This document shows, piece after piece, positions 6,201-26,800 of a stretch of DNA of 64,000 nt; the stretch's first letter is position 1; each line of letters begins with the position of its first letter. The position numbers and the translations under genes are program-made. The stretch spans positions 930,001-994,000 of the forward strand of contig NC_082620.1 in NCBI RefSeq assembly GCF_030936135.1, read 5' to 3'. The DNA comes from Gavia stellata (lineage: Eukaryota; Chordata; Aves; Gaviiformes; Gaviidae). Below the pieces are notes generated by a model. The model did not search any database, was not told the DNA's origin, and was given only the letters and a program-made list of their open reading frames with translations.

Positions 6201-9200
6201 GAGAAGTCAGCTGCATCCTCAGAAGGACGAGCTCCATGCAACGAGGTTTGGATTCAAGACCAGACTTGCAGGCAGCTGCATCCTTCATTTGCCCTGACCC
6301 TACTTCCCTTACTCAGCCGTGGCTCTGAAGAAAAAGCAAATCCAATCACATCTGGTCAACGCTCGGTAGCAGACGTGGTTAACTGGCATTTCATCGGAAG
6401 GTTACAGCTCTGCTTCCCCTCTTTAACTACTAGTGGGGTTTCTATTACACTGCTTCGCAGGAAAAAAATGCAGCAAACATTTGTGTCAAGTGACAGGCAT
6501 TCACGGGTAGATTATTGAGGATTTGCAGAGAGGCATTTTCTATCCAAGAGCGGGAGACAGCACATCAGGGAAGTTTCTCTGTCCCACTGGAAAGAGATTC
6601 TTTGTTTCCAAGGTGAATATTTACATCTGAAAGTGTTACTGTACCATGGATGAATCCCGAATGACACCCAACTCTACAATAGTTAGGCAGACTAGGACTC
6701 TCCAGCCAGAAAGGGATGCTCCGGAGGTCAGTAAAATCCCAAGTGGCACAGAAAAGGCAGATAAAAAGGCAATTGTTCACTGCCTCTTAATACAAGAGCT
6801 GGAAGGCATCAAACGAAGCCGGGAGATGGTAGGTTGAAACAAAGGAACTTCATGTGGCAGTAGCTGAACTGTGAAAGTCCTCACTACAAGATGTTGAGGC
6901 TATTAAGAAAACTGCACGGGTTTAACAAGCAACCAGATTCATGGAAGAGAAAAATTAATGAAGGACTACTAGACACAATGGTAACACCTCTGATTCAGAT
7001 ACTGCAGGCCACTGGAGGGAAGGGGAGCATTTGTGATGAACTATCACGACATATTTGCCCTCCTGCGACACTGTCTTCTGAGGTTTTGCATTTGGCTTCT
7101 GCTTAGGTGGTGCAACACAGCCAAAATCAAGCTGAGCTTCGCGGCGGGTCTGCCGAGCCTCCCTCCTTCAGCGAGCTGGCCCAAAAAAGGCCAAGAAGCT
7201 TTTCAAACTCCAAACCAGTTTTATCAGAATGAAAAACTAGAAACTTAAAACCGTAGAAAGTTCAAGGTAGTGACAGAAGATGAGACAGCAATGAAATGGT
7301 CTGTCTGCAAGTCTTCCACTTGCCTGTGTCCCAGCCAACTCCAACCTGGAGGTCACCAAACCCTGCCTGTCCCCAGGAGGGCTTTCCTGTGACTCCTGGC
7401 TAGCTGCTCTTCGCAGGGGCTGCAGCTCCTGGCCCTCTCCTGTCCCCCTTGCAGCCTGAAGCCTTCTCCCCTAAGCTCACCCACTGCGTCCCCAGACAAG
7501 AGCAGCCCCTCTCCCTCCAGAGGGGCAACCTGGCCTGGACACTTCTGAAGTGGCGGAAGGAGATTGGGAAAAAGAAGAAAAACTTAACAGCGTATCACAA
7601 ATACCGCAGGGCTAAACAGGCTCTAGACCTGGCCCAGTGCAGCAATTTTTGTCCTCCTGTACCTCCTCCAGCCATTGCTGTCAGAACTGTTATGGATGAG
7701 GCCAGTAAGCACAGCAATGCAGGAGAAACAGCTACGAGAGCCAGCGGCTCCTGGGCTCCAGTTCCGTGAAATGGCCATATTCAGGAGTAGGTGGAAATCG
7801 GTGGCCTTGGTGGGAGGGAGATCTCCCTAAGCGAGACGATCTGTCAGAAATTGTCTCTGCAGCATGCAGTAGCTGCTGCTCCTCCACCATTTGTCAGCGT
7901 TCTTCATCTCGACCTCAGAAAGCAAAAAAAAAAAATCAAGACATGGATGGTCCTCTCTAACCTGCCAATCATCAAGTCATGCTGTGAAATTTATTTACTA
8001 AACTCAGTTTGTAAGCAGAGGGTTGTTTAACTTCCCTTGTCTTCTAGCTACTGAGCTAGAGGATGGAAGAGTTTTAACCTCACCTTAAGTATAGGGAAGG
8101 GGTTTTTTTCCTTAAATTAATGATTTTCAGGGGAACTCAGTCATCTGAAATTAAACACTGGATCATCCGGAAATCTGGATTAGTCGAAAGTCATTATTAC
8201 TCAGTGAAGATCCTCAGACCAACTATATCACAAACTCTTCAACATTCTCTCTGTTAAAATTAAGCCTATTCACTATGCCTATGCAAGATGTGGGAGCAAA
8301 TCAAGCGTAAATATACAAGTGTGAAAACTAATAAAGAGATCAACTTCAGCATTAAGAATCCACAGTGTCCTCACAGATAGGACAAATACTTTTACTTCAA
8401 AAAATATCTCACAGACAACCTTTTTTCCCCAGCACGCTTTCCGTCAGCCTGAGCAGCTAAAGCAGGAGGGTACCTGACGCTGTGCTGCACACAGCCGTCT
8501 ACGTAGTTGTGTGAATTCAACTTCTGATCTGCGATCTCCAGTTTCTCCAGCAGTGTCGTTCTTTCCACCAGTAAATAAGCAACCTGTTCGCTGGCGTTAC
8601 TGTGAGCTATTTCAGACAAGCCTTCCTGTTCCAGCATCTCCTTGACCTCCTTCAGCTGGGCTTCTGCAAGACAAGGCTTTCTGTGAGCAGAGGAACAAAT
8701 GAAGCCCGATTCCTTCCAGATCTGTGTCCTAGCTCCTCTAAACACTCCCCACCACTACACCCCTGGAGCTCACCAACAGCTCATAAAACATTTAGTCTCT
8801 TCACCTGCTTCCCACCTCCCTTTCTGCCTCTTATCCCCCGTTCTTATCTCAGCCCCGTTCCCACTGCCCCAATGTTTCTGATCTGTCCTAACGTTTCCAC
8901 TCACATCCACTACCCTGCCTGCCAAGCAAGTGCTAGGACCTGCTACATCTAGACTGAGTTCTCCTGCCTTGCTTCAAGTAGTAGAGTTGTTGCGACCATT
9001 TTCCTCTACCCAGCAGCTGAGTTTCACCAACCTGGTTATCCCCAACCCTTTTACCCCTTAATACAGTCTGGTGGAAATTAAACAACAGATTAAAAAGGCA
9101 TTGAGAGAAACCAGAGGGAAGGGCAATCACATAAACATTTTCTTTGGAAAAACAGACACAAAATACCTTATTCATTTACATAAGCAGAACATCGCTATTT

Positions 9201-12200
9201 TCCTAAGGACTGTCTGGTAGGGAGGCGGATCTGAATATCTTATTTTTCCCCGAGCGCAGCAGGGATGCACAGCAGCACCTGGGGCATTGTGGCAGCCCGT
9301 GGTGGAGATCGGGGTGTTGGATCCCTTGTGATATGGTAGGAAAGCATGGCGAGGAACCAACAAGGGCCTGAAGCAGCTGGAGAAAGAGCACCCCATGGGC
9401 ACAAAGCGACTCGGAGTACTTAAAACATGACTTTAGAAATCACTCCCTGAACAGCGTTCCTGACCCATTCCTCCAAAACCAGCTAGAAACCCAGGCTAAG
9501 GACTGCTTCTAGTAACACAGACCTGTTGTCTGAAGGTCTCCTGTAGGATTAAAGGAGCAAAAAAAATCCTTTTAGAATTAAACCGTCAATTCTGCACCGT
9601 TTATGCCAAAATTATAGCTAGGAAGACTCTGTACTGGGAAAAACTTCAAGATTCAATGGCCTCCAAGGCAAATAGATGACAACAACATTTGCAAGAGAAG
9701 CTGGTTTATGGCTAGGCACCATTGTGTTTGTGCAACGAACAGTTGTTAAAAAGAGCCCCTCGCTTGCATGGTTGGAAATTTATCTGCCAGGAGAATATGA
9801 GGAACCTTTCGTCTCCTGCGTGGTCAGGGCAGCAACACCTGCCCTGGATCCAACAGCTTGTTAAGCTAAGGAAGCGTTTTTCAAAACCTCCCTATGTAAT
9901 TCATATTAAAAAGAAAACCAACAAACCCTGCTCCCAATTTCTAGCCCAAACCAGATTATAAAGTTTTCCAGGTGCTGTAGGATGGGAACTGGGGGGATTT
10001 GTGGGTTTTGTGTGGAGGAAGGAGGGATATTCACACTCCTTCGCTGCTTAGGGAGCTAAGGTTAGACATCTGGAGTTAAGCAGAGCAAATATTCCTCATA
10101 CTCTTACACAGGATACATACACAGCTCTGGACAAGCCTGTTCCTCACTTCCATACGCTGGATTTAACAGAGGACTCAGTGCAATCACATCCTCAGGCTCA
10201 AATCAATCGCGTGTTTCCACTCTGCATTTTGCAGGCAGCTCCGTCCAGCCCTATGGATGGAAAACACCCTGCGGTTCCCCATTTGCCTTCCCCTGTGGTT
10301 ACAAATTACAGCTTGTTCAATGAAGAGGTCAAACATGAGTGACGCAGCTTTCCTGCGTGAAGCAGAGCAAAATATTGTGTTTTGCAGTTTAAAAATAGCT
10401 GGCCACTTGCTCCATACGCATTATGAACAGCCCACAGCTCATACTCAACTGAACCGCCGCCTTGCCTCCAACCTGCCTTGCAACTTCCTCCCAGTTTTGC
10501 CAAATCCCACGTAAAATAAGCCGAAAGCTGCTCTGCTTTATGGCCAGAAACGGGACAACCATCTCTCTTTAGGACCAACGCTCTGATCTCATATGGTGGC
10601 TCCTACACCGACAGTTTCGCTTCAAGTACTTCCCCTACACCCAACCTGCAACGCAATACTAAGCAGGAGAGTTTCAGGTAACAGGACCTAGAAATTTTCC
10701 ACAGGCTGAAGAGGAAAAAAGATCTGGGAGGATGAGGGGAGTCTGCCGTACGCAGCACAGATTACCTGCTTGTCAAAGCTCATTAATTTCTTACGGGTAT
10801 CTCAAACACCTTCCCTACCACGTCCAACGTGTCCTGTTTGAGAAGGGCAAAGACCTCGTACAAGCAACGTTATACCAGTGCACTGATGTGTTCCCGCTAG
10901 CAAGTATCTCCTGCACCACCTCTGCGCTCACTTCTTTGGAAGTGAGTTTTATATTTGCAAAGGTGTCTTACCCCAGGAAGAAATTCTCAGAAATAAGCAG
11001 TTCACCGGTATCCTCACACCCACCACAGAAGCTGCATCCGCTCGTCTGTGCTGGGTACGTTTAAGCAGTACAGCTGTTACAATAAACAAGATCAGCCTAC
11101 GACTATTTATTCTTTTTGTTTCGCTTTTTAAATAAATCCAGGCTAGCCCCCAACAGCGTTGTGTTTTACCGCCACTATATTTGTTTTTCAGAAAGGCTTT
11201 TGGTAATGCAGCGCATGAGTTATCGATCCGCCCTCGAAAACCACCGAGGCGTATTCGACAAGAACCATTGGAAACGGATTATGAACTGCCTCGAGGAAAG
11301 GAAAAATTGCACTCTGGGCAGAGGTACCAAATGAGGTGAAGCTCAGATCAATAGCCCAACATAAAGCCAGCAGTGGCTGCTCTCAGCAGCAGCCCTTCGA
11401 GCCTGTTCCAGGCAAAAAGTAAATGCGTAAGCAGAAACTTACTTTTTATCACCAGAAACAGCTTTTGGCAGATCGAGTTGCTCCCAGCCATCCTCGGACC
11501 AAGCAGAGCTTCCGATCTGTTTGGCTGCTTTTGGAGGAGGGAGTGCGCTCAGTCCCGAGAGCCCACCCAAGTGATCTCCTGCATTTACCCGAGTCTTTGC
11601 CTCTTCCCTTCCCAATCTCTCTGCTCCCCAAAGCTGGGACTTCCAACTGTCACCACAAGCAAGATCAGGACGGATCCTGTCCGCTTGCACTTCACCGTTC
11701 ACAGGTCAGGGCCCTCCTTTGCGCCACAGGCTTGAACCAGCCTCTGTCCTCAACCGCCCTTTCCCATCTGAACTCGTTATCATTCCAAACCTCCCAAAAG
11801 CTCCCTACCCACCATCCTCTGCTCTTGCCTTGCCCACACCCTTGTTTAACAATCCCAGTAGAGCGGGGTCTGCCTTTCCACAAGACCCTTCTCCAGCCCC
11901 GTTTCCAGCCTCATCTGCAGTATCATCTTGTCCCTACTAAAGACAGCCAGCTGCCCCGCAAAAATAAGAGGGGGAGTAAGACCCAGAGGACAACCACCTT
12001 CTAGTTCGAGACCTTCAGCCTGCCCTACACCCCACAGGGCTCAGGAGGCATCTCTGGGTGGGTTTGCACAAACTCTGATGAAAAGCAGGGGCCTGGGGAA
12101 CGGACACAGGGATGCGGCATCGAACCCTGCGGCAGAGGTCCGTTAGAAGTCTTTGAGAAAGCGCAGCAGCTAAAGCACAAGCACATCCATCTGCTCTGTG

Positions 12201-15200
12201 CCAGATACAGCCAGTGGTTCGGTTTTATTTCTTCTTGAGAGGCTGACCTGCAAGACAAAAAGACAGTCCCTCAAGAAAACGATCTACCAGCATCCCATAA
12301 CACACCAGGGTTGGCACGAGGACAGCCTGGTGGAAGACAGGGCTTCACCCACTGCCCAGATTACTAAATTATCAACGCGTATTGCAGGAGCGTTGCTAAT
12401 GCCATCAGTAAGGTAATAACAACTCTTAAAAACCAAAGTCTGACAGCGATATCCCAAAACAAACTCCTCCAGAAAGCTGCACAGAAACACCGTATGGCAC
12501 CGAAGCATCGCAGAACCACAAAAACCTCTCGGGGACGGCTTGCTCGCAATTAGCAACCCACCAGGGAAACGGACAGGGATCTCTGTTTCCATTCGAGCGT
12601 TAATTGTTGCTCAACAGCCAGAAGAATCCCTAAAATAATGGAGAAAGTCCAAAGGAGCAGAGCCACTACGAAGAAATAAATGCAAACCCAGCTTTTGGGA
12701 CATTTTTGTCATTCGCCTGCCACCTCGTGGGGAAGATGAGAGAAGAACCAACGATAAAGTTTTCTGCCACAGCGATGCTCGCGAAGGCTCCTTAGTCATT
12801 TAAACCCTTGCGTGCCAGCATTTTCAACACGAGACGATGGCTTTAGGTGCCCAGAGGAAGCAAATTTTCAGGCAGTGCTTAAGCACACCCATCTCTGAAA
12901 AGTCTCTCCATCAGACGTGCTCCCTGAAACCCGCAGGCTGGCCAAAACTGCGCAGAGACTCAAAACTGCAATCAATTTCCCGAAATTCCTGGATTTGCCT
13001 CCCCAAATAAAGGGCGCGTAACAAAGAAACTGTTCGAGCTGTGCTATCACCCCCAATTTTACCTTAGGCCCAGGATAAGACACACCACAAAAGGAGGAGT
13101 TAACGAGAACGGTGTGCTATTAGCAGTACTCAAAGCACAACAGAAGACTGGGAAGACTGAAGACAATCAAGAACTAAACCCAGCAAAATATATTTGCCCT
13201 CACTGGAAGCGATGCCAGGGTTTGAGAAGAAAGCAAATCATCTGAAGTGAAATATTAAGTGAAACAATTTGTTTTAAACAAAATGACTACACTAAAAAAA
13301 AGCATCACAATCACCATCACAAAACGTATCACCGTCCTTCAAAGTTGTTTTAAAAAACGTGGACTTTGTCTAAACCAAAGCCCATGGCAAAGTCACTGAC
13401 TTGAAGGGGAACACGGCTTGACACTCAGTTACCCGAGAAGTCACTGTCAAATAATACGGTGCTGTTTGTTTTCCAACTCTATCCATTCTGTTCTTCAAAC
13501 AGCCTCTGGAAGATGCTCAGTCCAACAACAGAGCCACACGAAGTGAGAAACTGCCCAATTTCCTGAATAAAGGCAGTAGAGGCAGACAAGAACCTCCAAG
13601 TCAATTACAAATCAGTTCTAATATTGCATTAACAGAATCACAGAATCACTAAGGTTGGAAAAGACCTGTAAGATCATCAGGTCCAACGTAAAAAAAAAAA
13701 AAAAAACCACAAAAAACACCAACAAAACACACCACACAACAACAACAAACCACAACACACCAAAAACCAACCCACCCAACACCACACAGCACCATGTCCA
13801 TCAAGCTACATCCCACAATGCCACATCCACACGCTCCTTGAATACCTCCCAGAGAGGGTGACTCTACCACCTCCCTGGGCAGCCTATTCCAATGTTTCAC
13901 TACTCTCTCAGGAAAGACATTTTTCCTAATATCCAGCCTGAACCTCCCCTGGCACAACTTGAGGGCATTTCCTCTTGTCCTGTCACTAGTCACTTGGGAG
14001 AAGAGACCAACACCCACCTCCCCACAACCCCCTTTCAGGTAGTTGTAGAGAGCGATGAGGTCTCCCCTCAGCCTCCTCTTCTCCAGACTGAACACCCCCA
14101 GCTCCCTCAGCCGCTCCTCATCAGACTTGTGCTCCAGACCCCTCACCAGCTCCGTCGCCCTTCTCTGGACACGCTCCAGCACCTCAATGTCCTTCTTGGG
14201 GTGAGGGGCCCAAAACTGAACACAGCATTCGAGGTGCGGCCTCACCAGCGCCGAGTACAGAGGCACGATCACCTCCCTACTGCTGCTGCCACACCATTTC
14301 TGATACAAGCCAGGATGCCCTTGGCCTTCTTGGCCACCTGGGCACACTGCTGGCTCATATTCAGCCGGCTGTCAATCAACACCCCCAGGTCCTTTTCTAC
14401 GGGGCAGCTTTCCAGCCACTCGTCCCCAAGCCTGTAGCGTTGCCTGGGGTTGTTGTGGCCGAAGTGTAGAACCCGGCACTTGGCCTTATTGAACTTCATC
14501 GGTTGGCCTCAGCCCATCCATCCAGCCTGTCCAGATCCCTCTGCAGAGCCTTCCTACCCTCAAGCAGATCAACACTCCCTCCCAACTCAGTGTCGTCTGC
14601 AAACTTGCTGAGGGAGCACTCGATCCCCTCGTCCAGATCATCAATAAAGACATTAAACAAGACCGGTCCCAAAACTGAGCCCTGGGGGACTCCGCTTGTG
14701 ACCGGCCGCCAGCTGGATTTCACCCCATTCACTACAACTCTCTGGGCTCGGCCATCCAGCCAGTTTTTTACCCAGCGAAGAGTGTACCTGTCTAAACCAC
14801 AGGCCGCCAGCTTCTCTAGGAGAATACTGTGGGGAACAGTGTCAAAGGCTTTGCTGAAGTCCAGGTAGACAACATCAACAGCCTTCCCCTCATCCACTAG
14901 GCGGGTCACCTGGTCATAGAAGGAGATCAGGTTGGTCAAGCAGGACCTGCCTTTCATGAACCCGTGCTGGCTTGGCCTGATCCCTTGGGTATCCTGCACG
15001 TGTCCCGTGAGCGCCCTCAAGATGAGCCTCTCCATAACCTTCCCCAGCACCGAGGTCAGGCTGACAGGCCTGTAGTTCCCCGGATCCTCCTTCCGACCCT
15101 TCTTGTAGATGGGCGTCACGTTGGCAAGCCTCCAGTCATCCGGGACCTCCCCCGTTGGCCAGGACTGTTGATAAATGATGGAGAGCGGCTTGGCAAGCTC

Positions 15201-18200
15201 CTCCGCCAGCTCCCTCAGCACCCTTGGGTGGATGCCATCAGGCCCCATAGACTTATGAGTCTCCAGGTGGCATAGCAGGTCGTTAACTGCTTCCTCCTGG
15301 ATCATGGGGAGCCTATTTTGCTCTCCATCCCTGTCATCCAGCTCAGGGAGACAGATACCCTGAGGATACCTGGTGTGGCTGTTAAAGACTGAGGCAAAGA
15401 AGGCATTAAGTACCTCAGCCTTTTCCTCATCCTTCGTGACAATGTTCCCCGCCGCATCCAGTAGAGGATGGAGATCCTCCTTGGCTCTCTTTTTGTTGTT
15501 AATGTATTTATAGAAGCTTTTTTTGTTGTCCCTCACGACCGTGGCCAGGTTGAGCTCTAGCTGGGCTTTCGCCTTCCTAATTCCCTCCCTGCATGACCTA
15601 ACGAGGGCCTTGTATTCTTCTTCACTTGCCTGCCCCTTTTTCCAGAGGTGGTAAATTCTCTTTTTTTCCCCGAGCCTCAGCATAAGCTCATTGTTCAGCC
15701 AGGCCGGCCGTCTTCCCCGCCGGCTCTTCTTACGGCACATGGGCACTGCCTGCTCCTGCGCCTTCAAGATTTCTTTCTTGAAGAAGGTCCAGCCTTCCTG
15801 GGCCCCTTTGCCCTTTAGGACCGTCTCCCAAGGGACCCTCCCAACCAGTGTCCTGAACAGGGCAAAGTCTGCCCTCCGGAAGTCCATGGTAGCGGTATTG
15901 CTCACCCGCCTCCCTACTTGGCTAAAAATTGAAAACTCTATCATTTCATGGTCGCTAAGCCCAAGACGGCCTCCGACCTTCACTTCTCCCACCAGACCCT
16001 CTCTGTTCGTAAACAGCAGGTCAAGCAGGGCACCTTCCCTGGTAGGGTCGCTTACCAGCTGCGTCAGGAAGTTATCTTCCACACACTCCAGGAACCTCCG
16101 GGACTGTTTCCTCTTAGCTGTGTTGTACTTCCAGCAGACATCCGGTAAGTTGAAGTCCCCCACAAGAGCAAGGGCTTGTGACTGTGAGACTTCTGCCAGT
16201 CGCTTGTAGAACGCTTCATCGGCCTCTACGCCCTGGTCGGGTGGTCTATAACAGACCCCCAGCAGGATATCCGCCTTATTGGCCTTCCCCCTCATCCTTA
16301 CCCATAAGCATTCAACCCCGTCGTGACAATCATCCAGCTCTATACAATCAAAGCACTCCTTGACGTACAGAGCCACCCCACCGCCTCTCCTTCCTTGCCT
16401 ATCCCTCCTGAAGAGCATATAGCCCTCCATTGCAGCACTCCAGCCATGCGAGTCGTCCCACCATGTTTCTGTGATGGCGACCACGTCATAGCTGCCCCGC
16501 CGCACGATGGCTTCCAGCTCCTCCTGTTTGCCACCCATGCTCCGTGCATTGGAATAGATGCACTTCTGCCAACCTCCCAAACGCCACCCCACGTACGCTG
16601 CTCTAACAGACCTCAGTGAGAAACACCACTCCGCTCTCAAAGAAGCTTTAAAGCAGCTCTGCTGAAAGACCCGTACACCGCTACCTGTTAACGCATCTCC
16701 GTGGACCGTGTTTTGGAGGGAAAGGAGCTGCTTGAGCAGCTGCGTCAGCTCAAGCATGAGCTGTTCGTTTTCTTTGTCATATTCGGTGGTGATAGCATCC
16801 CACTGCTCCGTCAGGTTACAGACATGACCCACATAGCTTTCCACCTAGAAATCACAGAATCACTACTGTTGGAAAAGACCTGTAAGACCATCAAGTCCAA
16901 CCACCAACCCAACCCCACCATGCCCACTAAACCATGTCCCACAATGCCACGGCCACATGTTCCTTGAATACCTCCAGGGATGGTGACTCCACCACCTCCC
17001 TGGGCAGCCTCTGCCAGTGTCTCACCACTCTCTCAGGAAAGAAGTTTTTCCTAATATCCAGCCTGAACGTCCCCCGGCGCAACTTGAGGCCATTTCCTCT
17101 CATTCTATCGCTAGTTAGATGGGAGAAGAGACCAACACCCACCTCCCCACAACCCCCTTTCAGGCAGTTGTAGAGAGCGATGAGGTCTCCCCTCAGCCTC
17201 CTCTTCTCCAGACTGAACAACCCCAGCTCCCTCCGCCGCTCCTCATCAGACTTGGGCTCTAGACCCCTCACCAGCTCCGTCGCCCTTCTCTGGACACGCT
17301 CCAGCACCTCAATGTCCTTCTTGTAGTGAGGGGCCCAAAACTGAACACAGCATTCGAGGTGCGGCCTCACCACAGCCGAGTACAGGGGCACGATCACCTC
17401 CCTGCTCCTGCTGCCCACACCATTTCTGATACAAGCCAGGATGCCGTTGGCCTTCTTGGCCACCTGGGCACACTGCTGGCTCATCTTCAGCCGGCTGTCA
17501 ATCAACACCCCCAGGTCCTTTTCTGCGGGGCAGCTTTCCAGCCACTCGTCCCCAAGCCTGTAGCGTTGCATGGGGTTGTTGTGACCCATGTGCAGGACCC
17601 GGCACTTGGCCTTGTTGAACCTCACACAATTGGCTTCAGCCCATCCATCCAGCCTGTCCAAACAAATAAAACATCACTACACCTGAGCACGTCTACCAAC
17701 ATCTCACCAGCGAGCTGTTGGCACAACCAGCTCTCGGTCCCCCGGTATTTAACAGGATAACCTCAAACACTTGCAGGACACTACTTCTTTATGCCTTCGT
17801 CCCACCTGGGGATGTTAACAACTTGACTGACAGGCCTGGAAGGCGGGAGGGGACGGCGGTACGAAGGAAGGCGCGGGGACGGCGGTACGAAGGAAGGCGC
17901 CGGGACGGAGGTATGACGGAAGGCGCCGGGACGGCGGTACGACGGAAGGCGCGGGGATGGAGGTACGAAGGAAGGCGCTGGGACGAGGAGCACTCTCGGT
18001 CCCGGCTCCGTGGAGGACGCTGGGCTCGGTGCGGCAGCGCAAGGCACCGTGCCGCACGCCCGTTCTTGCGGGCAAGAGGAAAGCGCTTGTGGCTGCGAAG
18101 CCCCGTGAACCGGCCGCTGCAGAGAGGGGGGAAAGGGTGGTGGTGGGCCCGGACGGGTTCAAAGCCGAAGGGGCAGCTCTGGTCCCTTCTCCCGGCCCTT

Positions 18201-18472
18201 ACGTCCCTCACCCCCTCGGCGTGTCCCCGCTCCATGTCGCCGAACTGGGCCTCGGCGCGTCGCAGCAGCCGCCCAGCCAGGCCCAGCGGCTCCGCGGGCC
18301 GGTACCGCGGCCTCCGCCTGCGGGGGAACCGAGAGGAGCCGCCAGCGACGGAGACCCGGCGGACCAACACCCCGTCGTGTCCCCCGTCCCCGTCCCGGGC
18401 ACCCACCGGGGCGGCGGCAGCCGCCTCCACGCGGCGCGGGCCTGGGCCCCCCCCCCCGCAACCCCGCGCCAT
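1..18472 (-). CDS. CCDC30: CCDC30-like coiled-coil protein, 5' part (five exons, runs off the left edge)
   Basis: Five exons on the minus strand join with matching phase: 18212-18472, 16685-16844, 8474-8663, 3653-3798 and 724-839, giving 873 nt or 291 codons before the window ends. Apart from an Ala/Gly/Arg-rich N-terminus the product is a nearly continuous predicted coiled coil with Leu/Glu/Gln heptads, for example around EKENEQL-type residues in exon 2 and [12 protein letters not shown] in exon 3. No catalytic motif is visible. CCDC30 is a coiled-coil protein once named prefoldin-6-like; in mammals it lies beside PPCS on the same strand, exactly as here, which is the main basis for the symbol. 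The start at 18472 is my choice: it has a good Kozak context (GTTGCCATGG), opens a frame to a GT donor, and its phase fits exon 2. A downstream ATG at 18235 would also work. Three CR1 copies sit in its introns. Confidence 0.78.
724..839 (-). CDS. CCDC30: CCDC30 exon 5 (residues 253-291)
   Basis: Acceptor GTACAG, donor CTG|GTGAGT. It completes an Asp codon begun in exon 4 and encodes heptad-rich sequence including [18 protein letters not shown]. It ends in phase 0. The next exon would lie left of the window. A second AG four bases further in would shift the frame, so I prefer the first. Confidence 0.87.
840..3652 (-). other. CCDC30 intron 4
   Basis: AT-rich unique sequence. I saw no further exon with matching phase, no RNA gene and no clear repeat, only short A runs such as the one near 1,651. 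Confidence 0.6.
3653..3798 (-). CDS. CCDC30: CCDC30 exon 4 (residues 204-252)
   Basis: Acceptor CCTACAG, donor ATAG|GTAAGC. It completes the Arg codon from exon 3 and continues [10 protein letters not shown], then [16 protein letters not shown]: charged coiled coil with Leu at heptad spacing. Direct joining to exon 3 keeps the frame, so no further exon is needed between 3,798 and 8,474. Confidence 0.88.
3799..8473 (-). other. CCDC30 intron 3
   Basis: Unique AT-rich intron with short poly-A/T runs (for example near 4,988 and 7,925). One exon-like segment at 4,673-4,762 was examined and rejected on phase. Nothing else recognised. Confidence 0.6.
8474..8663 (-). CDS. CCDC30: CCDC30 exon 3 (residues 141-203)
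   Basis: Acceptor TTGTCTTGCAG, donor TCAG|GTACCC. Starts in phase 1, completing the Glu codon left by exon 2, and ends with two bases of an Arg codon. It encodes a strongly helical segment including [17 protein letters not shown] and [19 protein letters not shown]. This is the most recognisable part of the protein. Confidence 0.9.
8664..13630 (-). other. CCDC30 intron 2, part downstream of the CR1 copy
   Basis: Mixed-composition unique DNA. Several open frames of 60-190 codons occur between 11,370 and 12,590, but none shows a domain, codon bias or splice structure I would trust. Confidence 0.5.
13631..16600 (-). mobile_element. CR1 LINE, nearly full-length ORF2 (endonuclease plus reverse transcriptase)
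   Basis: From about 16,600 to 14,496 a single open frame encodes an APE-type endonuclease (YSNARSM start, [28 protein letters not shown]) and then a reverse transcriptase ([22 protein letters not shown], catalytic FADD near 14,590-14,603). The C-terminal third continues in other frames (14,269-14,499, then about 13,800-14,347), so single-base breaks lie near 14,497 and 14,290, with a third near the end around 13,850. Comparison with the copy at 16,847-17,661 shows one lost base at the 14,290 break. The 3' end carries the CR1 tail (CAGAATCACAGAATCACT on the plus strand at about 13,633-13,650), and the 3' UTR contains an A- and CAA/CCA-rich expansion at 13,690-13,790. ORF1 and the 5' UTR are missing. 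It lies in CCDC30 intron 2 in sense orientation. Confidence 0.95.
16685..16844 (-). CDS. CCDC30: CCDC30 exon 2 (residues 88-140), between two CR1 elements
   Basis: Begins GTG GAA AGC after acceptor TTTCTAG and ends ACA G before donor GTAGCG (phase 1). It encodes a Glu/Leu/Gln-rich heptad segment that includes [18 protein letters not shown]. The upstream acceptor tract is the 3' tail of a truncated CR1 copy. Another CR1 begins about 85 bp past the donor. Confidence 0.85.
16847..17661 (-). mobile_element. CR1 LINE, 5'-truncated, ORF2 C-terminus intact
   Basis: Encodes the last 240 or so residues of CR1 ORF2 in one uninterrupted frame ([34 protein letters not shown], ending [11 protein letters not shown]), then the CR1 3' UTR (GGTCTTTTCCAAC on the minus strand) and an octamer tail TGATTCTGTGATTTCT that stops at 16,847. 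Truncation of the 5' end at about 17,661 is typical of CR1. It occupies most of CCDC30 intron 1 in sense orientation, and its tail forms the pyrimidine-rich end of that intron. Confidence 0.95.
17851..17980. repeat. 26-bp tandem repeat, five copies
   Basis: GC-rich unit GGACGGCGGTACGAAGGAAG plus six bases. The GGTA/GGTAT landmarks fall at 17858, 17884, 17910, 17936 and 17962, an exact period of 26. It lies in CCDC30 intron 1, about 230 bp downstream of the presumed first exon and inside the CpG island. Confidence 0.9.
18212..18472 (-). CDS. CCDC30: CCDC30 exon 1 (presumed first coding exon, residues 1-87)
   Basis: Open from ATG 18472 to the donor GGGG|GTGAGG at 18211. The first 60 residues are low-complexity (Gly run, Ala run, RRRRPR). 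The last 25, around [15 protein letters not shown], are amphipathic and run smoothly into the coiled coil of exon 2. It ends in phase 0, which is what exon 2 needs. Its position inside a CpG island fits a first exon. No cDNA support is available here, so the N-terminal half is less certain than the splice end. Confidence 0.6.
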
Positions 18473-18780
18473 GGCAACGGGGGGCCCCGGGCGCGCCATT
18501 AGGCCTACGGGAGAAGGCCACGCCCCTGCGCGCCTAAGCCACGCCCCAAACCACGCCCATGCGCGCCTAAGCCACGCCCCCAAACCACGCCCCTGCGCGC
18601 CTAAGCCACGCCCCAAAGCACGCCCCTGCGCGCCTAAGCCACGCCCTTGTGCGGCTAAGCCACGCCCCTGCGCCTACTCGGACACGCCCCCTCCCGGCAG
18701 CGCAGCAGGAGCGGCTCCGCTCCCTCCGCTCCTTCAGGTGACCCGGGAGGGAGGAACGTCCCGCTCCCGGTCCTAAAACC
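18473..18780 (-). promoter_or_regulatory. CCDC30 CpG-island promoter region with GC-box array
   Basis: GC-rich, CpG-dense sequence directly upstream of the presumed first CCDC30 exon. It contains a tandem array (about 18,515-18,690) with eight CCACGCCC elements (KLF/Sp-type) and two CACGCCC variants. No TATA box was seen. Assignment as a promoter rests on position and composition. Confidence 0.6.
18515..18690. repeat. Tandem repeat of about 33 bp containing CCACGCCC / GCGCCTAAG
   Basis: Alternating blocks CCACGCCCCTGCGCGCCTAA and CCACGCCCCAAA repeat about five times with minor changes. The core CCACGCCC is the best-kept part. Confidence 0.9.
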
Positions 18781-21637: not shown

Positions 21638-23643
21638 CTACATCGGGGAAAGAGAGCAGAGAAAAGTTTCAGTGAAAACATTACGATGCAATTTTAGTAA
21701 GAGATGGGGGGCAGGGGAATTCCAGCTTCAGTTCACGTTGTATTTACACTGGGAAGTCTTCCAAGGCAGTATTGGGTCAGATCTCACCAAACAAGGTTAA
21801 AATGTCACTGGCACGCACTGTAACATTAAACTAAATTATCAGTCTGGTATTAACAATAAGCAGGGTGTTCTTAAGCAATGAAGCAGGCCCACAGCAACTG
21901 CGTAAATATTTTGTTATTTAAGAGCTAAAACCCACTCCGGTAACATAAACATAAGCAGAGGAAGATTAAAAAAAAAAGAATTACAACTGCAGAAGCCTGA
22001 GTTTTCAGCTCTCCAAAATCCAGGCAGCTTGTCAAATCTTATCCCTTCTATCAGCCTCTTTAGGGCACACGAAGCATAAATATGCCAAGGCACGGGGGAA
22101 ATGTAGGAGGCTTTTGTCCTCCAGCTTCTTAACCTCTGGGTCTGCCACTGGGAATCGGGTAGGGTCTCCTTTTTCCTACGCTAAGGATAAAGAATTAAGC
22201 CCAGCAACCTGTTAAAAGTTAATTAAATTAAACAAATTTGCCATATACAGAGCCCTAGATCCATCTGCTCCCACAGCTGAAAGGAACCTGGGCACCAGAG
22301 ACACGCGCTACGCATTCGGGCTGTTGTCAGCGTTAAGAAGGCAACACAAGTGCTGCAGCAGCAGCTATTCTTCAGCTGAGACCCACCATCTGCTCGTCTC
22401 CGTGCTGGAAGCGCAGACAGCTTCCAAGGAATATTTCCATGGGATTCTGCTCCCGTGGAAGTTCACCCTCCTATTCGCAGTGAAAACTCGTGCTTTTTCG
22501 GCCAGCGAGCCGTCGCTCTGCAACCTTCCCCGGGACTTATTCAGAGCCAGTCCCCAGGCAGCCGTGACCCTGGCAGGACGCTGGGACAGCCAGGGTGCTG
22601 GCAGGGGAGGAGGGGGTGGCGGAGGGGGGCCAGGCCCTGCGGAGCCTCACCTGGAGGGGCCCCTCCGAGGACTGGATCTTGTGCTCGGGCATCTCCGAGG
22701 CGGGGATGTAGAAATCGGACACGGCGGCTGCTAGGTAAAACATGACGCTGGAGCCTGCGGGAAATACAACTGCAGTCACCCGCCCGCAGTCTGGCGCCCA
22801 TCTGCCGGCACCCACCGCTGCCGGCACCCACCACTCACGGCACCCACCGCTGCCGGCACCCACCGCTCACGGCACCCACCGAGCAGCCTGGCCCTCTCCC
22901 CCCAGGGACCACCGGGATGGACCAGAGCCGGTTGGGCTGCCAATCCCCCCCACCACCACCCAGGGACCCCCTCAGAGACCCCCCCCACCCCCCCGCCAGC
23001 ACTGTCCAGAGCCGGGCAGCGCTGACCCCCCCCCCGGGGTCCCCTCAGACAGACTGTCACCCCCCGGGGCCACCTCGTCCCCTCACGCCAGAGCCCTACA
23101 GCCGCCGGGGAACCCCCCCCAGGCCCGGGCTCCCCCCGGGGCCGCCCCCCTCCCCGTACCGAAGGGCGCCAGGGCGCGGGCGGCGGCTCGCAGCAGCGCC
23201 AGGTACTCGGCCAGCCCGGTGAACTCGATGGCCAGCAGCGCCCCGGCCTCGGTAGCGCGGCGGTAGTCGCGGAGGGCGGGCAGCAGAGCGGGGAGAGCGG
23301 CGAGGTCGGCGGCCACGCCGGGCGGGGGCCCGGGGGCGAGGCGGAGCGCGTCGAGCAGGGCGGGCCCGGGCGGCGGGAGGGCCCTGGCCCAGGGGAAGGC
23401 GGAGCGGGCCCGGTGCAGGAAGCAGACGCCGTAGCCGGCCCCCACCAGGCGCTCGGCCGAGGCGGCGCCGCGCCGCCCGCTGCTGAAGTTCTCCAGGAAA
23501 CGGACGGCGCGCGCCTCCAGCGGCACCTGCGTCCCCCCCGACGTCACCAGCGCCACGCGCCGCCCGCGCGCCGCCTGCCCCGCCGCCCAGGCCCGCACGC
23601 GCGCCTCCGCCGCCGCCTCGTCCGCGCCGCCCGCCGCCGCCAT
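21314..23643 (-). CDS. PPCS: Phosphopantothenoylcysteine synthetase
   Basis: Complete gene of three exons (23160-23643, 22651-22754, 21314-21637), 912 nt, 303 aa; the human enzyme is about 311 aa. It makes 4'-phosphopantothenoylcysteine from 4'-phosphopantothenate and cysteine, the second step of CoA synthesis, in the cytosol; animal enzymes use ATP. Family hallmarks seen: the nucleotide-binding loop [17 protein letters not shown] followed by ENFSSGRRG in exon 1; [10 protein letters not shown] and the HKI segment in exon 2; [17 protein letters not shown] and the SDEEI segment near the C-terminus in exon 3. The start is the only in-frame ATG before the first motif. The segment at residues 75-130 is Ala/Pro/Gly-rich from high GC content and looks more diverged than the rest. 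It is transcribed away from ZMYND12, with only about 130 bp between the two reading frames. Confidence 0.97.
21638..22650 (-). other. PPCS intron 2
   Basis: Unique sequence with a GC-rich start next to exon 2. Nothing else recognised. Confidence 0.6.
22651..22754 (-). CDS. PPCS: PPCS exon 2 (residues 162-196)
   Basis: Acceptor TTTCCCGCAG, donor CTCCAG|GTGAGG, phase 1 to phase 0. It encodes [14 protein letters not shown] and PEHKIQSS, the most conserved block of the family and part of the active site. Confidence 0.97.
22795..22885. repeat. Short CCGGCACCCACCG tandem repeat in PPCS intron 1
   Basis: About five to six copies of a unit near 15 bp (GGCACCCACCGCTGCC / GGCACCCACCGCTCAC). It is followed by C-rich sequence with several C runs to 23,050, which makes this 405-bp intron extremely GC-rich. 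Confidence 0.8.
23160..23643 (-). CDS. PPCS: PPCS exon 1 (residues 1-161)
   Basis: ATG at 23641-23643 (GCCGCCATGG context on the minus strand is CGGCGGGCATGG-like and CpG-rich); donor TTCG|GTACGG leaves one base of a Gly codon. It holds the substrate and nucleotide-binding motifs ([14 protein letters not shown]) and a GC-driven Ala/Pro-rich linker. Confidence 0.95.
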
Positions 23644-23851: not shown

Positions 23852-26800
23852 GTGAGAGCCCCCGCTGGCTGCGGGGGATGGGGGCAGGCCCCGGGCGAGG
23901 CCCGGGACGCAGCCTGGGAGGGAGCCCGGGAAGCAGGGAGGAGGCGGAGGGCGCAGGGAGAGGGTGCGGGACGCGGCCCAGGAGGCAGGAGCCGCCCTGG
24001 GGCACAGGGGCAGAGCAAGAGGCAGGGACGAGTCCCGGGACGAGGCTCAGGGCACAGGGAGGAGGCCCAGGACGATGTGCAGGAGGCAGGAACGGGCCCA
24101 GGACAGGGCAAGATGCAGGGACGAGCCCCAGGACAAAGCTCCAGACACAGGGAGGAGGCCCAGGACGATGTGCAGGAGGCAGGAACAGGCCCAGGACAAG
24201 GCTCGGGGCACAGGGAGGAGGCCGAGGGCAAGGCCCAGGAGGCAGGAACAGGCCCAGGACAGGGCAAGGGGCAGGGACGAGCCCCAGGACAAGGCTCCGG
24301 ACACAGGGAGGAGGCCCAGGACGATGTGCAGGAGGCAGAAGCAGGCCCAGGACAAGGCTCGGGGCACAGGGAGGAGGCCGAGGGCAAGGCCCAGGAGGCA
24401 GGAACGGGCCCAGGACAGGGCAAGGGGCAGGGACGAGCCCCAGGACAAGGCTCCGGACACAGGGAGGAGGCCCAGGACGATGTGCAGGAGGCAGAAGCAG
24501 GCCCAGGACAAGGCTCAGGGCACAGGGAGGAGGCCCAGGACAGTGTGCAGGAGGCAGAAACAGTCCCAGGACAAGGCTCGGGGCACAGGGAGGAGACCAA
24601 GCGCAAGGCCCAGGAGGCAGGAATGGGCCCGGAACAGGGCAAGAGGCAGGGATGAGCCCCAGGACAAGGCTCAGGACACACAGAGAAGGCCCAGGACGAT
24701 GTGCAGGAGGCAGAAACAGGCCCAGGACAAGGCTCAGGGCACAGGGAGGAGGCCCAGGACGATATGCAGGAGGCAGAAACAGGCCCAGGACAAGGCTCGG
24801 GGCACAGGGAGGAGGCCGAGGGCAAGGCCCAGGAGGCAGGAACGGGCCCGGGACAGGGCAAGGGGCAGGGACGAGCCCCAGGATAAGGCTCAGGACACAC
24901 AGAGAAGGCCCAGGACGATGTACAGGAGGCAGAAACAGGCCCAGGACAAGGCTCGGGGCACAGGGAGGAGGCCCAGGACAGTGTGCAGGAGGCAGGAATG
25001 GGCCCAGGACAGGGCAAGAGGCAGGGACGAGCCCCAGGACAAGGCTCCAGACACAAGGAGGAAGCCCAGGACAATGTGCAGGAGGCAGAAGCAGGCCCAG
25101 GACAAGGCTCAGGGCACAGGGAGGAGGCCCAGGACAGTGTGCAGGAGGCAGGAACAGGCCCGGGACAGGGCAAGAGGCAGGGACAAGCCCCAGGACAAGG
25201 CTCCGGACACAGGGAGGAGGCCCAGGACGATGTGCAGGAGGCAGGAACAGGCCCAGGACAAGGCTCAGGGCACAGGGAGGAGGCCCAGGACAACGTGCAG
25301 GAGGCAGAAACAGGCCCAGGACAAGGCTCGGGGCACAGGGAGGAGGCCGAGGGCAAGGCCCAGGAGGCGGGAACGGGACCGGAACAGGGCAAGAGGCAGG
25401 GACGAGCCCCAGGACAAGGCTCAGGACACACAGAGAAGGCCCAGGACGATGTGCAGGAGGCAGAAACAGGCCCAGGACAAGGCTCAGGGCACAGGGAGGA
25501 GGGTCAGGACAAGGCCCGAGGGGCAGCGCCAGGCCTAGGACACAGGGACAGGTCCCGGGCAAGGGCCGAGCGACAGAGACAATACCTGGGATGCACCCCA
25601 GGGTGCAGGGTCAGGGCAAGAGGCAGGGACTAGCGCTGGGATGAGGCTTAGGACACAGGGACAAGCCCTGGGACAAGGCTTAGGACACAGGGATGAAGCC
25701 TGGGAGGCAGGGACAAGGCCTGGGACGAAGGTCGGAAGGCAGGGCTGAGGCCCAGGAAGAAGGGACGAGGCCTGGGATGGAGACAGGGAGAAGGCGCAGG
25801 ATGAAGCTTTAGCAGGCAGGGTAGTGGGAACTGGAGTGGGCATGCTCAGCAATCGCTCAGCTGGAGCATTCCTCCTCGCTTCCAACAGTGCCCACATCAA
25901 ATAGCGAGCAGTGCAGGGAGCTTTTTGCATGTTTACACAAATATCTTCGCTTGCACAGGGTCCTCAGTGAAGTCACGCGTTATGTATTTCATTGGTTTCA
26001 CAATGACTTGGGGTTTGTTTGGCTTTGGGGTTTTTTTGTGTACTGTGGTGTTGAAAGCCAGGCATTTGCTCAAACCTAACTGTATCGGGAGTTTTGTGAG
26101 TGATTTAAATAAGGTTTTATCATACAGAATCACGTTCGCTTGGCAGGACAGTGCTGTGTTCCCGTTTGGGAATATCAAGGATATATGAGGTACCCTGTGA
26201 GCAGACTAAGGGCTGGTGGCTGTTGTGGGTAATTCTTGCGGTGAAAGTCCAGAAGATACAACAGGCAATAATCTTCCCTCACATCATTTCCAAGCAAACA
26301 AAAATATCGTTCTTGCCTTATTTTTTTAGCGATGTAGATCATCAAAAAGCTGACTGGGTTAGTATCCACGAGCGAATATGCCAGCTGCTGATTCCAATCC
26401 GTACGTCCCTCCCTTTTCTCCTTTCTGAAAAAGAAAGAAAACATGGCACGGAACAGCTGGTGAAGAGGCAGGTATGTACAAGAAAAACGAATACCACTTC
26501 AAAGTGCTGCCAGTGAAATTTAGTTAGAGCTCTTCTTCCTATACTTTGATGTACGTAGTGGCGGGAGGGCACCTCGCTGGTTGATCGGCAGTTAGTTGCA
26601 GAGCTTTAATTTTTTTTAAACAAAAACTCTATAATAAGGGGAGTGGGAGCATCCCCTCTCCGATTCTATGAGCCTCCTGCCTTTTTTGCAGTCCTTACTG
26701 GAAGTCCTGAGCTTCCTCAGACAGCGGCAATCCTGGCTCTCCCTCCTTGCCAGGTAGCTAGTCCATATTCCCGGTTAGTCCGGGATCCAGCTGAGTTTTG

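Follow-up and report, generated by a model that had tools for sequence, protein, structure and literature searches.

The 3' splice site of intron 1 of CCDC30, a gene on the minus strand of the window, is abutted by a truncated CR1 retrotransposon that ends seven bases before exon 2. In the best explanation overall, to which we assign a probability of roughly 0.6, a CR1 split the native acceptor and left a hybrid site with a poison competitor. The element would have entered the native 3' splice site in sense orientation, its RNA presumably base-pairing by the octamer end with TTCT as a target within the pyrimidine tract during target-primed insertion. The host sequence TTTCTAG would have stayed beside the exon, while the native branch point and tract would have been moved 809 bp upstream. 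The present acceptor would then be a hybrid, combining the host AG with a branch point and tract of the CR1, and would compete with a CAG of the CR1 located 21 nt upstream, the use of which adds in-frame stops. The structural part of this explanation is likely to be correct. The functional part, predicted from sequence, is that correct inclusion of exon 2 is reduced and that cryptic-AG transcripts and skipping are to be expected; here the odds appear evenly balanced.

The window is a stretch of 64,000 nucleotides (C27:930001-994000) of the analysed genome of 1.32 Gb, whose CR1 content points to a bird. Downstream on the gene strand, at C27:909,594-914,274 (minus), the DUF4686 profile (PF15742), which we take to be a marker of CCDC30, gave seven matches, five of them above the cut-off; one of these five reads across a TAA. 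Upstream, a DFP domain, as in PPCS, is encoded at 23643-23164 of the minus strand (E 5.4e-06), and a MYND finger is located just past it (E 5.7e-12). The NCBIfam matches to the gene with the DFP domain were all under their cut-offs. PPCS and ZMYND12 are the neighbours of CCDC30 in human. Identification of the gene as CCDC30 is supported by the sequences of the DUF4686 exons and of the neighbour genes. Two repeats are located in the upstream region: the 16-bp repeat CTGCCGGCACCCACCG, present five times inside the PPCS gene region (22802-22881), and a minisatellite (24015-25542) with a 63-bp unit in 24 copies, also showing periods of 156, 219, and 375 bp, which adjoins the first MYND exon. The features of the CCDC30 locus are listed in Table 1.

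Table 1. Features at the 5' exons of CCDC30 (window coordinates).
Feature	Position	Strand	Remarks
Upstream coding exon (exon 1)	18212..18319	-	donor GAGGGG/gtgagg; alternative donor 18203, same phase; 5' limit (18319) is an assumed acceptor
Putative displaced native tract, host TAGTGATGTTTTATTTGTT	17661..17679	-	GTGAT branch-point candidate, A at 17674
CR1-A, 809 bp, 5'-truncated, sense; end of ORF2 and 3' UTR	16852..17660	-	aligns to CR1-B at 91% over 769 bp
CTTAC in CR1-A, branch-point candidate of yUnAy type	16882..16886	-	A at 16883; distance to exon 2, 39 nt
CAG of CR1-A, cryptic acceptor	16866..16868	-	when used, 21 nt are added, TAGTGATTCTGTGATTTCTAG, which carry in-frame stops
Terminal octamer TTCTGTGA of CR1-A, one unit	16852..16859	-	from copy alignment
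TTTCTAG, last seven bases of intron 1	16845..16851	-	remaining end of native acceptor (best reading)
Exon 2, 160 nt, 53 codons	16685..16844	-	phase 0 in, 1 out; donor TAACAG/gtagcg, weak score
CR1-B, 2,933 bp, sense, intron 2	13634..16566	-	endonuclease and reverse transcriptase domains
Exon 3	11443..11527	-	NAGNAG acceptor (11527 or 11524); phase 1 in, 2 out
Exon 4	8474..8680	-	phase 2 in; in-frame open after exons 1-3

The letters quoted in the earlier note for the minus strand directly 5' of exon 2 are present as given: TTCTGTGATTTCTAG at 16859-16845, followed by GTGGAA from 16844. At greater length, the border between intron 1 and exon 2 reads ...CAACAGTAGTGATTCTGTGATTTCTAG/GTGGAAAGC on this strand. 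By its sequence the element next to exon 2 is a CR1 beyond doubt. The earlier description of it as a truncated CR1 before exon 2 holds, and its orientation is sense; the limits of 17661 and 16847 are replaced by 17660 and 16852 on the basis of copy alignment. The alignment of CR1-A with CR1-B starts at 17660 with TGGACAGG. At its 3' end CR1-A carries an octamer of the TTCTGTGA type and no poly(A). Among 39 copies retrieved through their 3' ends, 37 have the exact octamer at the end position of CR1-A and the other two (L011 and L029) differ in its last base; 3' of the octamer the flanks of these copies diverge, or more octamers follow. Since the alignment starts at 17660 and the copies diverge past the octamer, CR1-A is delimited as 17660-16852 with one octamer. 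The claim that the sequence upstream of exon 2, with the branch-point candidates and the outer tract, derives from a retrotransposon is upheld. Tails of this family are found everywhere in the genome, the commonest type in the 3'-end sample having 10,032 exact occurrences. A single insertion comprising both CR1-A and CR1-B was considered and rejected: both are 5'-truncated, they are 91% alike, and single-copy host DNA lies between them (the stretch 16567-16700 occurs once in the genome).

The seven bases TTTCTAG between the octamer and exon 2 are best read, from the sequence comparisons, as the host remnant of the native acceptor. The CR1 octamer has been defined as TTCTGTGA, the first four bases of the flank after it tend to TTCT in the coscoroba, and the youngest copies were argued to be those with one octamer (St John and Quinn, PMC2612034). 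The 3' flank of CR1-A, TTTC, is TTCT-like and matches this published preference. For flank preference in this genome, 39 copies were retrieved by means of their 5' part, which leaves the tails unselected; 27 were parsed and 12 were unparsable. In the 23 copies with one octamer, T occupies base 1 in 16 and base 2 in 15, and C at base 3 and T at base 4 are each found in 10 of the 23, a T/C bias that is partly raised by remnants of second octamers. TTCT is common to the octamer and the target, which leaves a few bases at the element-host border that could be assigned to either side. TTTCT may be shared with the octamer as microhomology, with the AG belonging to the host; under either border the AG and the exon are host sequence, unless the AG arose by mutation. 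The 18-mer TGATTCTGTGATTTCTAG has nine occurrences in the genome, located at CR1 ends as judged by eye and followed by nine different continuations. Set against the exact occurrences of the commonest tail, this number makes TTTCTAG a rare flank and not a signature of CR1.

The opposite flank of CR1-A resembles the missing part of an acceptor. The 12 host bases 5' of the element, GTTTTATTTGTT (17672-17661), comprise nine T, and no other part of host intron 1 is as rich in T. Twelve-mers with at least nine T number 183 of 39,048 in the CR1-masked gene region and 2 of 540 in host intron 1, both of the latter overlapping GTTTTATTTGTT, and the 12-base 5' flanks of 36 other CR1 copies contain at most six T. 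The two flanks, joined by script, read ...TAGTGATGTTTTATTTGTT(TT)TCTAG/GTGG, and this acceptor scores 9.4 with no duplication and 5.7 with an assumed short duplication, vs. 1.4 for the present site; all splice scores come from approximate matrices, which ignore enhancers. In the joined site without duplication, the A of GTGAT stands at -21 and no AG is found between GTGAT and the exon's own AG. Of 38,984 random flanks joined to TTTCTAG, 4,544 scored at least as high as the 5.7 version and 474 at least as high as the 9.4 version. A target-site duplication is not a defining feature of CR1 insertions. At CR1-A at most three bases match between the two sides, and in the 36 other copies the mean match is 1.42 vs. 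1.39 in shuffled pairs, with none of the 36 reaching four or more. As duplications are undetectable in these copies, the joined site may lack bases or carry extra ones. Of the two possibilities raised in the earlier note, landing of the CR1 within a few bases of the old splice site is favoured over replacement of that site: TTTCTAG fits a host TTCT target, and a T-rich tract with the branch-point-like GTGAT remains across the CR1.

The present site differs from the joined one. Within CR1-A, CTTAC is followed by TCTTTTCC and then by the CAG, which ends 17 nt after the A. The score of this CAG is 3.4 and that of the host AG, 21 nt downstream, is 1.4. The CAG variant is present in 3 of 39 CR1 copies, and CTTAG (score 0.1) is found in 28 of them. 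When the host AG is used, a script reads exons 1-4 open in frame, and the TTTCTAG junction was the only one of the tried acceptors to keep these exons in frame. Use of the CR1 CAG inserts TAG TGA TTC TGT GAT TTC TAG in frame, and skipping of the 160 nt of exon 2 shifts the frame, so that stops are met in exon 4. The previous statement that the acceptor appears to work is thus unsupported, a better-scoring CAG with immediate in-frame stops being located 21 nt upstream.

The age of CR1-A was assessed against the majority sequence of 41 sampled copies, picked by their likeness to CR1-A; 38 of 769 non-CpG sites differ (4.94%), and the terminal branch of CR1-A is 0.048. With substitution rates of 2-3.9e-9 per site per year (PMC2946954), this divergence would place the insertion at about 12-25 My or less. 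The estimate also contains the divergence of the source and is therefore an upper bound. CR1-A, a fragment that presumably has no function, is itself open for 248 codons. Since it stayed open over the same age, the intact 53 codons of exon 2 prove little, and the open exon, which had been taken as a sign of a working acceptor, is weak evidence.

The main competing explanation holds that the branch point and tract of the CR1 work, that splicing takes the AG adjacent to the exon and that exon 2 is normally included, the acceptor being tolerated and exapted. Splicing at the host AG indeed leaves exons 1-4 open, and they are still open although the CR1 may be up to about 12-25 My old; in addition, a nearer GTGAT candidate, with its A at -16, lies between the AGs of the CR1 and exon 2. 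A distance of 16 nt is, however, near the lower limit for a branch point, the CAG comes earlier, scores better and stands at a normal branch-point distance, and the donor of exon 2 scores only 1.0. The intact frame carries little weight in view of the open CR1-A fragment. We regard normal inclusion as a possible but distinctly less probable outcome than the split acceptor with a poison competitor. A further reading concerns the origin of the AG itself, namely that TTTCTAG represents a second CR1 octamer altered by mutation. The element would then have reached or replaced the acceptor, and the AG would be a product of mutation. This reading draws on the copies L036-L039, in which TTTCTGTG or TTTCTCTG follows the first octamer, and on the nine CR1 tails that end in TTTCTAG genome-wide, CR1-A's among them, four of which (L058, L059, L061, and L065) follow at least two octamer-like units. 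The sequences past these nine tails all differ, nine tails are few when the commonest type has 10,032 exact occurrences, and a new AG would have been needed exactly at a phase-compatible exon start, all of which makes this origin improbable.

The split-acceptor explanation also depends on exon 2 being an exon, which it probably is, judging from its coding sequence and phase. Its exact phase with exon 1 (phase 0) and exon 3 (phase 1), as reported before, was reproduced and the frames join. The exon is open in one of six frames, where its codon score is +13.3 bits, and the other five have stops. If it were not an exon of the expressed gene, but a pseudo-exon between CR1s, or if the N-terminal exons were disused in favour of a downstream start, several observations would be accommodated: both of its splice sites are weak (1.4 and 1.0), its score with the donor (13.3 + 1.0 = 14.3) is reached by 39 of 600 random AG starts, and a home-made exon chain leaves it out together with exon 3, the downstream exons in the chain being believable. 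This chain is only a guide, as it includes chance exons such as 18116-17806. The peptide likewise has no convincing relative in Pfam or among solved structures: four weak matches to solved structures were obtained (best E 0.39), the Pfam search with the exon 1-2 peptide returned only PDCD7 below threshold (E 0.082), which was rejected as a relative and taken as chance, and the exon 4 peptide had no Pfam match. No second allele or paralogue of exon 2 was found by a protein search of its own genome, which returned only exon 2 itself; in the DNA search, in which 40 of 1,939 candidates were scored, the non-self matches listed all belonged to the CR1 part (query 1-117). Pattern searches with the peptide, aimed at stray bird DNA, gave 350 stretches in genome_contigs and 200 in viral_contigs, none of which was confirmed. 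Against the pseudo-exon reading stand the single open frame of six, the +13.3 bits and the fit with exons 1, 3, and 4, and we consider it rather unlikely.

A broader proposal was also considered, in which CR1 has a predisposition to insert into 3' splice sites and does so without destroying them. The octamer end of the RNA would pair with TTCT, a motif of pyrimidine tracts, favouring sense insertions just before an AG, and the 3' UTR of CR1 would bring its own branch point, tract and AG. If true, CR1 would be a mobile acceptor that repeatedly makes bird exons regulated or poison exons. The sequence AGTGATTCTGTGATTYYYAG was matched at 53 places in the genome, 11 of them within one tandem array. 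Thirty of the 53 places and the nine TGATTCTGTGATTTCTAG occurrences, giving 32 distinct loci with a CR1 tail followed by TTYYYAG, were scored for a following exon. The CCDC30 locus ranked first, ahead of a second-placed locus at 9.2; it scored 19.0 when the donor was taken inside CR1-B and 14.3 when the exon's own donor was used. As no convincing second exon behind an identical CR1 tail was found among the 32 loci scored, acceptor-seeking by CR1 is conjectural, and we hold the predisposition to be very doubtful. In contig C44 (G000:C44:10157175-10212828), these 11 CR1 tails lie on the same strand, many of them about 4.5 kb apart, a pattern suggestive of tandemly repeated units that each contain a CR1 end.

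Retroelements in acceptors are already known as a kind, as in the merle SINE and the chicken CR1 exonizations. In canine merle a SINE is located at the intron 10/exon 11 boundary of PMEL (PMC7349775). As is proposed for CCDC30, a retroelement lies in the acceptor, the original acceptor is kept beside the exon, a cryptic acceptor occurs within the element, and the branch-point distance is changed. The merle SINE is described as reverse-oriented, with a poly(T) tract and a 15-bp target duplication (PMC7349775), whereas CR1-A is a LINE fragment in sense orientation, with an octamer end that matches the TTCT of its putative target and with no detectable duplication. The intronic SINE near the exon 5 acceptor of canine FAM161A, for which RNA from an affected dog showed skipping (PMC3976383), is similar in the location of the retroelement near an acceptor and in the frame shift upon skipping, whereas the effect at CCDC30 is predicted from the DNA. 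In chicken, 70 exonizations of transposable elements, mostly of CR1, have been reported (PMC2911107), which likewise illustrate that CR1 gives splice signals in bird genes. In those cases the CR1 becomes an exon, whereas at CCDC30 it appears to interrupt the acceptor of a host exon; only the cryptic form at CCDC30 would exonize sequence, 21 nt of which 14 are CR1. The coscoroba CR1 (PMC2612034) shares with CR1-A a single perfect octamer, TTCTGTGA, and after it a T-rich flank starting with TTTC; the sections of that work cited here deal with insertion preference, and splice sites are not their subject. Neither a CR1 in the CCDC30 acceptor nor this locus was found among the matches listed for literature titles and abstract openings.

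The instructive part of the present case is the proposed CR1-specific reason for the survival of the AG. The locus offers a clean and roughly dateable LINE that seems to split an acceptor, and the target preference of CR1 would explain why the AG survived. Normal inclusion of exon 2 would make it a natural swap of branch point and tract for retrotransposon sequence, and abnormal inclusion would make it an in-frame poison acceptor; either outcome would tell how much damage a bird acceptor tolerates. Whether the TTCT preference steers CR1 to acceptors is directly testable in annotated bird genomes.

Several further observations were made at the locus. Exon 2 is squeezed between two CR1s, as 118 bases separate its donor from the start of CR1-B, whose endonuclease and reverse transcriptase domains lie in one open frame up to about 14496. 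The frame of exon 2 is open from 16844 to 14496 (minus), running via the start of intron 2 into ORF2 of CR1-B over 782 codons. The simplest reading of this run is chance; a read-through fusion, joining the start of CCDC30 to the CR1 endonuclease and reverse transcriptase, is conceivable from the open frame. A 33-bp GC-rich tandem repeat in 3.9 copies (18518-18646) lies immediately 5' of exon 1, where the promoter is likely to be, and a 26-bp tandem repeat in 5.3 copies occupies 17849-17985 of host intron 1. At the acceptor of exon 3, both AGs of the tandem NAGNAG (11524-11527) are phase-compatible.
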